DNA of 64,000 bases from Thermoanaerobaculia bacterium (lineage in GTDB: Bacteria; Acidobacteriota; Thermoanaerobaculia; Gp7-AA8). Every line of letters starts with the position of its first letter. Position 1 is the first letter of the stretch. A program made the position numbers and the translations under genes. Positions 47,913 to 50,385 of this stretch are shown here, piece by piece. The stretch spans positions 1 through 64,000 of the forward strand of contig JADGNZ010000019.1 in NCBI GenBank assembly GCA_017883205.1, in the 5' to 3' direction. Under the pieces are notes generated by a model that worked only from the letters and a program-made list of their open reading frames with translations, searched no databases and was not told where the DNA came from.

Positions 47913-47918
47913 TACGAT
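47913..47918 (+). promoter_or_regulatory. -10-like hexamer of the Lgt-like gene
   Basis: TACGAT lies 10 nt before ATG 47929. Confidence 0.35.
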
Positions 47919-47928
47919 GACGCCCGCC

Positions 47929-48711
47929 ATGCACTGGACTGGCAACTTCGCCGTTCACTTCGCGTTCGAGACCGCCGGCTACATCGCCGCCATCATTATC
48001 TATGCGGTGCAACGCCGCCGCCGCGGCGACAGCGTGCCCGATGAGACCCGCGCCTCGGTGCTCGCCGGAGCGGCGGCCGGAGCGATGATCGGCACGCGGC
48101 TGCTCTACGTTCTCTGCGATCCCGCCAACAACATTCACAACATCCTCGGCGGCAAGACGATCGTCGGCGGGCTGCTCGGCGGATTGATTGGCGTCGAGCT
48201 CGTCAAGCGATTCCTCGGCGTTCGCCGCTCCACCGGAAACCTTTTCGTCGAGCCGCTGATCGCAGCGATGTGCATCGGACGCATTGGCTGCTTTCTGACC
48301 GGCCCGGCCGATCAGACCGCCGGCAATCCGACGTCGCTGCCGTGGGGTATCGCCATCGCCGACGGCATCCCGCGCCATCCGGTCGCGTTGTACGAGATCG
48401 CGTTTCTCCTCGCGCTTGTTCCTCTGCTGCGCGTCATCAGGAGAAACGAGAGCAAGGGCATCGGGCCTTTGTCGCACGAAGGCGATACCTTCCGCATCTT
48501 CCTCGCGTCGTATCTTTTCTTCCGCCTCGGCGTCGATTTTCTCAAGCCCGATCCGCGCCCCATCCTCCTCGGCATGACCGCAATTCAATGGGCATGCGTC
48601 GCCGGATTGCTCTATTATTTGAGCGTACTCTGCAATGACAACCGCGACCCGGCCCTACCTTTTCTACGACGCGGTCGTCTCCATCTGCACGACGTGCTTC
48701 CGCAAGATTGA
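47929..48711 (+). CDS. Divergent Lgt-family membrane protein
   Basis: This 260-residue polytopic membrane protein is related to prolipoprotein diacylglyceryl transferase. The framework is present: GTRLLYVLCD, GRIGCF, IPRHPVALYE and ASYLFFRLGVDFLKPD. The key Lgt residues are changed, however. The HGGLIG loop with essential His103 (E. coli) reads IVGGLLGG, GRLGNFINGE reads GRIGCFLTGP, and the FR..VEF Glu is Asp. It is therefore probably not the housekeeping Lgt. It overlaps the radical SAM gene by 77 bp, so both are made together. A lipid-related role is likely. ATG 47917 is an alternative start. Confidence 0.75.
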   Translation: MHWTGNFAVHFAFETAGYIAAIIIYAVQRRRRGDSVPDETRASVLAGAAAGAMIGTRLLYVLCDPANNIHNILGGKTIVGGLLGGLIGVELVKRFLGVRRSTGNLFVEPLIAAMCIGRIGCFLTGPADQTAGNPTSLPWGIAIADGIPRHPVALYEIAFLLALVPLLRVIRRNESKGIGPLSHEGDTFRIFLASYLFFRLGVDFLKPDPRPILLGMTAIQWACVAGLLYYLSVLCNDNRDPALPFLRRGRLHLHDVLPQD

Positions 48712-50041
48712 CGGCAAGATCGTCTTCGAGGAAGGGCGCGTCTGCATGCTCAAACACTGCCCGACGCACGGATCGGAGCGCGTGTTGATGTCCGACGACG
48801 TCGACTACTACCGGCAATGCCGCGAGATCTACCTCAAGCCACCGGAGATGCCACTGCGGCGCAACACACCGATCCGTTGGTCGTGCCCGTACGACTGCGG
48901 TCTCTGCCCCGATCACGAACAGCACAGTTGCATCTCGCTGATCGAAGTCACCGACGCCTGCAACCTTCGTTGTCCGATCTGCTACGCGGAGAGCGGCCCG
49001 GAGCGGCAGCATCACCGCTCGCTCGATCACATCGAAGCGATGCTCGATTCCGTGGTCGCGAACGAGGGTGAGCCGGATGTCGTGCAGATTTCCGGCGGCG
49101 AGCCGACGATCCATCCCGACTTCTTCGCGATCCTCGACGCCGCCAAACGGCGTCCGATCAAGCACCTCATGGTCAACACGAACGGCGTGCGCATCGCCCG
49201 CGACGCGGCATTCGTGGAGCGCCTGGCAACGAACAAACCGCTCTTCGAGATCTATCTGCAGTTCGACTCATTGCGTCCGAGGCCGCTGGAGATTCTGCGT
49301 GGCGCCGATCTGCGCGAGATCCGTATGAAGGCGCTCGAGCGGCTGAACGCGCTCGATATCTCGACCACGCTTGTCGTCACGTTGCAGCGCGGCGTCAACG
49401 ACAGCGAGATCGGCGAGATCATCGACTTCGCCCTGACGCAGCCATGCGTGCGCGGCGTGACGCTCCAGCCGGTGCAGGTCGCCGGACGGCTCGATGGCTA
49501 CAACGACGGCGAGAACCGCCTCACGCTGTCCGAGGTGCGAAGAAAGGTCCTCGAGCAATCGACGCTCTTCGCGCCGGAAGATCTCATCCCTGTTCCCTGC
49601 CATCCCGATTCGCTCTGCATGGGCTACGCATTCAAAGGCGGCGGCGAGGTCGTGCCGCTGACGGGGCTGCTCGGACGCGATGCGCTGATCGACGGCAGCC
49701 GCAACACGATCGTCTTCGAGCGCGATCCCGCCGCGCGCGGCGCGTTCCTCAAGCTCTTCTCCACTGCACTCGGCTCCGAGTCACAGCCGCAGAAGTTGAA
49801 GGATCTCCTCTGTTGTCTGCCCCGCGTTCAGGGCGACATCAGCTACGGCAATCTCTTCCGCCTGCTGATCGTGGAGTTCATCGACGCGCAATCGTTCGAT
49901 CTCCGCTCGATCAAGAAGACGTGCATCCACATCGTGCATCCCGACGGACGGCTGATCCCGTTCGATACCTACAATCTCTTTTACCGCGACGACCTCGAGA
50001 CGACGCGTCTCGGGCCGCTGCGAGAATGGGCGGTGCGATGA
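48635..50041 (+). CDS. Tes-like radical SAM protein with auxiliary Cys clusters
   Basis: This is a 468-residue radical SAM enzyme. The SAM cluster is CNLRCPIC (C109, C113, C116). N-terminal C18, C21, C37 and C42 resemble a rubredoxin-like iron site. CPYDCGLCPDHEQHSC (C84, C88, C91, C99) would hold a further Fe-S cluster. VVQISGGEPTIHP is the SAM-binding GGEP motif. More Cys lie in the C-terminal half (VPCHPDSLC and LLCC). This set matches the archaeal tetraether synthase Tes (MJ0619 family), which joins lipid tails. Bacterial relatives are suspected in membrane-spanning lipid synthesis. The neighbours are an Lgt-like and a small membrane protein. Confidence 0.82.
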   Translation: MTTATRPYLFYDAVVSICTTCFRKIDGKIVFEEGRVCMLKHCPTHGSERVLMSDDVDYYRQCREIYLKPPEMPLRRNTPIRWSCPYDCGLCPDHEQHSCISLIEVTDACNLRCPICYAESGPERQHHRSLDHIEAMLDSVVANEGEPDVVQISGGEPTIHPDFFAILDAAKRRPIKHLMVNTNGVRIARDAAFVERLATNKPLFEIYLQFDSLRPRPLEILRGADLREIRMKALERLNALDISTTLVVTLQRGVNDSEIGEIIDFALTQPCVRGVTLQPVQVAGRLDGYNDGENRLTLSEVRRKVLEQSTLFAPEDLIPVPCHPDSLCMGYAFKGGGEVVPLTGLLGRDALIDGSRNTIVFERDPAARGAFLKLFSTALGSESQPQKLKDLLCCLPRVQGDISYGNLFRLLIVEFIDAQSFDLRSIKKTCIHIVHPDGRLIPFDTYNLFYRDDLETTRLGPLREWAVR

Positions 50042-50385
50042 TGAGCGAAGTACCGACGAGCGAAGTTCCCTCTCCCGCGGCGGCTGCCCTGGCAACGCCG
50101 GCCCCGCCGAAATTCAACGTCCTCGCCATGTTCGGAGGATTGGTGCTTTCCGTGGTGCTCGGCGCTATCGGGAACGTCGTGGCCGGTCTGATCGGCAGCG
50201 ATTCTGGCGCCAAGATTCTCGGCTTCCTGATCGGCATCGTTCCCGGCGTGATCTTTGTGGGACTGGCCGCCCTCCTGCGCCGCAAGACCACCGCCTTCGC
50301 CACCGGACTGCTCATCGGCGGCTGCCTCGTCGGCCTGATCGGTGGGATCTGCGGAGCGTCGATGGTGGGGTTCAGTGTCCATTGA
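50041..50385 (+). CDS. Small membrane protein after the radical SAM gene
   Basis: This 114-residue protein has a Pro/Ala-rich N-terminus of about 25 residues and then three hydrophobic segments (about 28-50, 58-78 and 86-110), rich in Gly. There are two adjacent ATG codons, at 50038 and 50041, one overlapping the radical SAM stop; I use 50041. No family was recognised. Overlap with the radical SAM gene makes a shared operon certain and a shared membrane task plausible. Confidence 0.75.
   Translation: MSEVPTSEVPSPAAAALATPAPPKFNVLAMFGGLVLSVVLGAIGNVVAGLIGSDSGAKILGFLIGIVPGVIFVGLAALLRRKTTAFATGLLIGGCLVGLIGGICGASMVGFSVH

Follow-up and report, generated by a model that had tools for sequence, protein, structure and literature searches.

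Three overlapping genes were found on the forward strand of the window, which is the whole stretch of 64,000 nucleotides of DNA that was analysed (Table 1). They encode an Lgt-like membrane protein, a radical SAM enzyme and a small hydrophobic membrane protein, and they lie where an earlier note on this DNA had placed them, with overlaps of 77 bp and then 4 bp. The Lgt-like gene has an alternative start at 47929; the start at 47917 may be the true one. The longer overlap likely reflects translational coupling of the Lgt-like and radical SAM genes, and at the shorter one the ATG of the small-protein gene overlaps the stop codon of the radical SAM gene.

Table 1. Features of the three-gene locus, with positions in the window.
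Feature	Position	Strand	Basis
Lgt-like 7-TM membrane protein, 264 aa	47917..48711	+	Pfam LGT, fold match to 5AZB
Radical SAM enzyme, 468 aa, own subfamily of the Tes/TrsS superfamily	48635..50041	+	Pfam, NCBIfam, model, tree
Small hydrophobic multi-TM protein, 115 aa, candidate acceptor substrate	50038..50385	+	Motif in relatives
Overlap (77 bp) between the frames of the Lgt-like and radical SAM genes	48635..48711	+	

The first protein is a paralogue of Lgt. It matched the Pfam family LGT (1.3e-23; 84.1 bits, cut-off 24.9) and scored far below the cut-offs of the NCBIfam Lgt models (39.9 of 334 for NF000778, 25.5 of 118.9 for TIGR00544). The AlphaFold model, built on 38 relatives (pLDDT 88), aligned with E. 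coli Lgt (5AZB) at a Z-score of 12.0 over 216 residues, the next, unrelated match reaching 7.3. We are aware that 5AZB was not among the best 50 Foldseek matches of this model, the Z-score of 12 coming from a second aligner, and that a PDB search returned 5AZB with a profile and no match with the single sequence. The 7-TM fold, the GRIG motif with R143, and R239, Y235, E202 and G154 are common to the modelled protein and E. coli Lgt. Differences are the very short head domain of the protein in the window and the presence of a separate canonical Lgt in the genome.

For E. coli Lgt it was reported that all R143 and R239 mutants are inactive, that H103 is essential and that R246K is inactive (PMC4728403). 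Among the 38 relatives of the Lgt-like protein R143, R239, Y235, G142 and G154 were invariant, and E202 was kept in 37. The arginines corresponding to R143 and R239 of E. coli are R122 and R203 in the protein of the window. The earlier note had correctly read the HGGLIG loop as IVGGLLGG, with Val in place of H103; Val occupies this position in 32 of the 38 relatives and His in none. Further exchanges relative to E. coli Lgt are Y26 to H, Y30 to E, M100 to K and R246 to K. That other catalytic residues are changed as well applied to R246, E151 and E243 (D or E in the relatives), not to the invariant positions listed above or to E202. With both catalytic arginines present in 38/38 relatives, the description of the protein as lacking the catalytic loop was overstated. 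The genome of the window encodes one other LGT protein (190 bits; L007, 1501-2256), the presumed housekeeping Lgt, which carries Tyr at position 103 and Cys in place of Asn146. Such changes alone are therefore no sign of a dead enzyme. A better-scoring Lgt was also found in 8/8 tested genomes, seven with the unit and one, Shewanella (L128), without the Lgt-like gene, which leaves the paralogue free for another acceptor. The dead-enzyme reading was rejected as unproven, R143 and R239 being invariant and the organism's own Lgt being equally devoid of His103. As the catalytic arginines are kept, a purely non-catalytic role in presenting a lipid is not required. From its residues, the Lgt-like protein is probably an active enzyme whose acceptor or chemistry has changed.

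The radical SAM protein contains the Pfam domains Radical_SAM and Zn_ribbon_HMPTM, the latter named after the old annotation of MJ0619. It scored 261.2 bits on the NCBIfam model for the tetraether synthase Tes (NF045702, cut-off 450), with the alignment ending at residue 322, and 316.2 bits on that for TrsS (NF045646, cut-off 490), and thus belongs to neither curated family. TrsS was the best-scoring family, with a full-length alignment (15-450), from which the enzyme nevertheless differs in its score, in the absence of the C-terminal Cys of TrsS-like relatives and in having no selenocysteine. Other acidobacterial proteins reached 552-607 bits on the Tes model. The AlphaFold model of the enzyme, built on 42 relatives (pLDDT 86), matched GDGT-MAS (7TOM) with a TM-score of 0.80 over 503 columns, far above the 0.38 of the next match; SkfB and SuiB were the structural matches following Tes. 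In a FastTree phylogeny of 98 sequences, midpoint-rooted and with an uncertain root, MJ0619 grouped with acidobacterial Tes, three of which exceeded the Tes cut-off, and the subfamily of the window lay on the other side. This tree had been set beforehand as a check on Tes membership, and the enzyme branched outside the Tes family. Of the relation to Tes claimed earlier, the superfamily fold was retained and the family membership was not.

The residues of the metal sites gave a similarly divided picture. As in Tes, where the rubredoxin site is C9X2C12X20C33X2H36 (PMC9433317), the enzyme has C18/C21/C42/H45. The N-terminal cluster is formed by C84/C88/C91 with H94, the fourth ligand in Tes being a His, and the SAM cluster C109/C113/C116 is kept. 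The three Cys clusters had thus been assigned correctly, except for C37, which is Y/F/W/I in relatives and not a ligand, and C99, which is no Tes feature, MJ0619 having Ile there. The SAM-contact residues Gln278 and Arg285 are likewise common to Tes and the enzyme. In contrast, the C-terminal Cys shared by Tes and TrsS-like relatives are replaced in the whole subfamily of the window: position 429 is S/T, 444 is D/E and the Cys of the HPxC motif is another residue. Judged by their conservation, these Cys would be the ligands of the C-terminal [Fe4S4] cluster. The chemistry of Tes depends on this cluster, where the first carbon radical is kept in the form of a C-S bond (PMC9433317). Furthermore, Tes Tyr459 corresponds to Ile433, and Tes Met439 to Val413, a position with Met in many relatives. 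C322, C393-C394 and C430 are found in the subfamily instead, and Cys393-Cys394 was present in 78/78 enzymes whose linked Lgt-like gene scored high, among the matches listed. In summary, the enzyme has the Tes fold but is not Tes, given its score, its branch outside the MJ0619/acidobacterial Tes clade and the loss of the C-terminal cluster cysteines; its partner genes differ from those of Tes, too. The reading as bona fide Tes was rejected on residues, score and tree.

Four loci of a gamma/betaproteobacterial type carry a radical SAM enzyme without the Lgt-like partner and without Cys393-Cys394 (L122 7470-9139, L128 7478-9198, L129 1802-2587, L146 1947-3637). Downstream of the radical SAM gene these loci encode a SAM methyltransferase and, with one exception, also a protein which we take to be DUF547-like. 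A separate acidobacterial group of the Tes superfamily with 630-720 aa (L085, L090, L097 and relatives) has C84/C88/C91 replaced; its member L085 reached 336 bits on the Tes model, under the cut-off.

The distribution of the pair was determined for 347 Acidobacteriota genomes and across phyla. Both genes were found in 18 of the 347, a count which takes in the more distant pair of G193, one gene alone in 2 and neither in 327, so that the two occur together more often than by chance. The radical SAM subfamily, counted at 55% or more, was present in 18 genomes, and the Lgt-like profile found 19. Concerning the two single genes, the Lgt-like gene of G015 stops at a contig end, and the radical SAM gene of G233 (L024/L052) has its N-terminus in another frame, which looks like decay after the loss of the Lgt-like partner. 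In the acidobacterial family f20 the enzyme occurred in 10/90 genomes. The cross-phylum set comprised at least 80 named loci from 84,980 genomes and placed the pair in at least seven phyla, including Bacillota, Bacteroidota, Pseudomonadota, Planctomycetota, Acidobacteriota and Melainabacteria, with the unit found in Paenibacillus, Flavobacterium, Mucilaginibacter, Chitinophaga, Roseateles and other genera. The suggestion of an acidobacterial function in membrane-spanning lipids was not borne out by this distribution. The pair was also seen in a MAG titled Candidatus Thalassarchaeaceae archaeon (L140), by horizontal transfer or contamination.

In 84/96 loci among the matches listed, the acidobacterial ones included, the Lgt-like gene was co-directional with the radical SAM gene and nearly always upstream of it, in agreement with the earlier proposal of a conserved unit coupling the two; 6 of the 12 remaining loci lay at contig edges. 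Overlap of both genes was frequent among the matches listed. The gene arrangement of the window was found again only in part, as order varied, gaps extended up to several kb, and small genes were inserted or stood before or after the pair. Adjacency is therefore relaxed in some lineages, but the pair still stays together. A fusion of the Lgt-like and small proteins was looked for and none was found, the long N-termini looking like over-extended ORFs. In L056 and L057, TrsS-like radical SAM genes at a greater distance (34-39% identity) have an Lgt-like neighbour, too, so that the association may predate the subfamily. The radical SAM protein of L056 lacks the cysteines of the N-terminal cluster.

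No Pfam family covers the small proteins, and their sequences have hardly anything in common between phyla. The small protein of the window has a lipobox-like Cys near its C-terminus (..LIGGICGASMVGFSVH), and relatives in other phyla show a K/R, a hydrophobic stretch, [GAS][TAS]C and a short tail, often with a final His. Position -2 is mostly G/A/S and position -1 mostly T/A/S, as in a lipobox. The form of the motif differs by group, with LLNAAC in Bacillota, IGF[GS]TC in Bacteroidota, LGLC or NAAC in Acidobacteria, G[IL]CG in Betaproteobacteria and GGIC in the window; in the distant pair of L056 the ORF between both genes ends in ..VLAGTCFAIVMAYQ. Defining the motif as K/R, then at least 14 charge-free hydrophobic residues and directly thereafter Cys, it was found in 60/70 small multi-TM ORFs lying no more than 700 bp from the pair versus 9/51 control ORFs located elsewhere or on the other strand, among the matches listed (p 2e-14; as the loci are phylogenetically related, p-values are inflated and serve as guides only). 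Four of the 9 motif-bearing controls were further array members in L115. Using simple hydropathy and ORF rules, on which all these counts rest, small Cys proteins were detected near 65/84 loci with the Lgt-like gene and near 0/6 internal loci without it, among the matches listed. The 19 misses include L039, L044 and L100, where a comparable ORF is visible by eye, and Chloracidobacterium is among the loci with no small Cys protein nearby. A C-terminal His was present in 21/79 tails versus a background of 2.7%, among the matches listed. Small proteins may occur in tandem, with three copies in L172 and several in L115, a Holophagae MAG with an array of divergent small multi-TM proteins downstream of the pair, several of them with a VGGC/VGSC-type Cys.

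The density of K/R was 0.135 before and 0.054 after the helix with the Cys. By this pattern, the Cys should face the periplasmic side, where Lgt works. As in a lipobox, the Cys follows small residues and closes, on the outer side, a hydrophobic helix that is preceded by K/R. In contrast to a lipobox, the Cys of the small proteins is internal in most phyla, often as [GAS][TAS]C, and in the type of Bacteroidota, Bacillota and the window it sits within the final TM helix instead of following an N-terminal signal peptide.

The conserved module is defined by gene coupling, by the folds, by kept and lost residues and by the Cys motif. As its function we tentatively propose, as a possibility and no firmer, a dedicated lipidation unit, each chemical step of which we infer. 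The cytosolic radical SAM enzyme would abstract hydrogen from the hydrophobic tail of a phospholipid, presumably without the Tes-like tail-to-tail coupling through a C-terminal cluster. On the periplasmic side the Lgt-like protein would load the lipobox-like Cys, at its thiol, with a diacylglyceryl group that perhaps carries the tail modified by the radical enzyme, the small proteins in their one to several divergent copies being the putative acceptors. Consistent with this are the coupling and co-occurrence of the pair, both folds, the invariant R143, R239, Y235 and G154, the separate Lgt, the recurring Cys with its predicted outward orientation, the small Cys proteins seen near most Lgt-bearing loci and near none of the six internal loci without Lgt, and the tracking of Lgt linkage by Cys393-Cys394, the latter two among the matches listed. 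Against it stand Val and Lys at the positions of the essential H103 and of R246 of E. coli, the location of the Cys within the last TM helix, the loci with no small Cys protein nearby, such as Chloracidobacterium, and the fact that this Cys could serve another need. We know of no canonical Lgt that accepts a Cys lacking a preceding N-terminal signal peptide. We hold as doubtful the more specific statement of a new lipoprotein-type system in many phyla, where small multi-pass membrane proteins would be S-diacylglycerylated at an internal Cys by an Lgt paralogue, using a lipid with a tail modified by a radical SAM enzyme of the Tes superfamily.

Several other explanations were weighed against this proposal. 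Rather unlikely appears a unit of the kind suggested in the earlier note, which makes a free lipid, i.e., a membrane-spanning or otherwise tail-modified phospholipid. In it the Lgt-like protein would do no more than bind phosphatidylglycerol and present it to the radical enzyme, and the small protein would act as a scaffold. The Tes-like fold with its known lipid pocket (PMC9433317), the PG-binding residues kept in the Lgt-like protein and the frequent gene overlap among the matches listed would agree with it, but the exchanged C-terminal cluster Cys (S/T429, D444), the Ile for Tyr459 and the branch outside the Tes clade do not, and the Cys recurring in otherwise dissimilar small proteins would be left unexplained. 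The taxa, moreover, do not follow known membrane-spanning lipids, with no more than 10/90 genomes positive in one acidobacterial family. To our knowledge, no membrane-spanning lipids are known from Paenibacillus, Flavobacterium, Mucilaginibacter and Roseateles. Some other tail modification by the radical SAM enzyme would be compatible with the distribution. A still narrower assignment, as acidobacterial synthase of iso-diabolic acid or brGDGTs and thus as bona fide Tes, is highly improbable. It could draw on the superfamily relationship and on the trio in Chloracidobacterium-like genomes; Acidobacteria Tes homologues were proposed for brGDGTs (PMC8941075). However, iso-diabolic acid was described as a main constituent in the majority of Acidobacteria studied (PMC10087280), whereas the enzyme is spread patchily over Acidobacteriota (18/347 and 10/90 genomes), which disfavours an iso-diabolic acid synthase. 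Moreover, the enzyme scores 261 bits on the Tes model versus 552-607 bits for other acidobacterial proteins, and a search for a second Tes candidate in the genome of the window's organism found none.

The small protein could also be the substrate of the radical SAM enzyme itself, in a RiPP-like modification, for example a thioether or other crosslink at the Cys or the C-terminal tail, with a lipid being added or positioned by the Lgt-like protein. The conserved Cys and the C-terminal His of the small and divergent neighbours, of which each locus has one to several, auxiliary clusters like those of radical SAM enzymes that act on peptides, and SkfB and SuiB as the structural matches following Tes are in line with this idea. 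We judge it unlikely, as the positive-inside pattern would put Cys and tail outside, away from the cytosolic enzyme, the enzyme is closest to lipid-acting Tes and not to SPASM maturases, and the small neighbours are without a leader-core layout. Even less probable is a structural or electron-transfer role of the small protein, not as a substrate but as membrane anchor or redox partner in a complex of the Lgt-like and radical SAM proteins, with a small molecule as product. The short overlapping genes and the small multi-TM protein would suit such a subunit, which, however, need not be multi-copy, as it is in L172, where three copies lie in tandem, and in L115 with still more, or so divergent in sequence. 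The gamma/betaproteobacterial variant, with its soluble methyltransferase and DUF547-like protein instead of Lgt, fits here as well and indicates that the product of the radical enzyme may not be a lipid.

In the literature search no paper was found that joins radical SAM with a diacylglyceryl transferase or an Lgt homolog. The pair is not described by its component families, and the unit as a whole appears to be undescribed, its parts being variants of known families. A two-enzyme unit of at least seven phyla, without a function in the families and papers searched, occurs in easily grown genera such as Paenibacillus, Flavobacterium, Mucilaginibacter and Chitinophaga, and concrete candidate acceptors and residues can be named for it. 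The unit would combine lipid-directed radical chemistry and a paralogue of Lgt, itself an essential enzyme of lipoproteins, and hints at a novel kind of lipid or lipoprotein modification. Finally, where bacterial membrane-spanning lipids are deduced from "Tes homologues" counted with loose cut-offs, some of these homologues may be enzymes that lack the C-terminal cluster of Tes.
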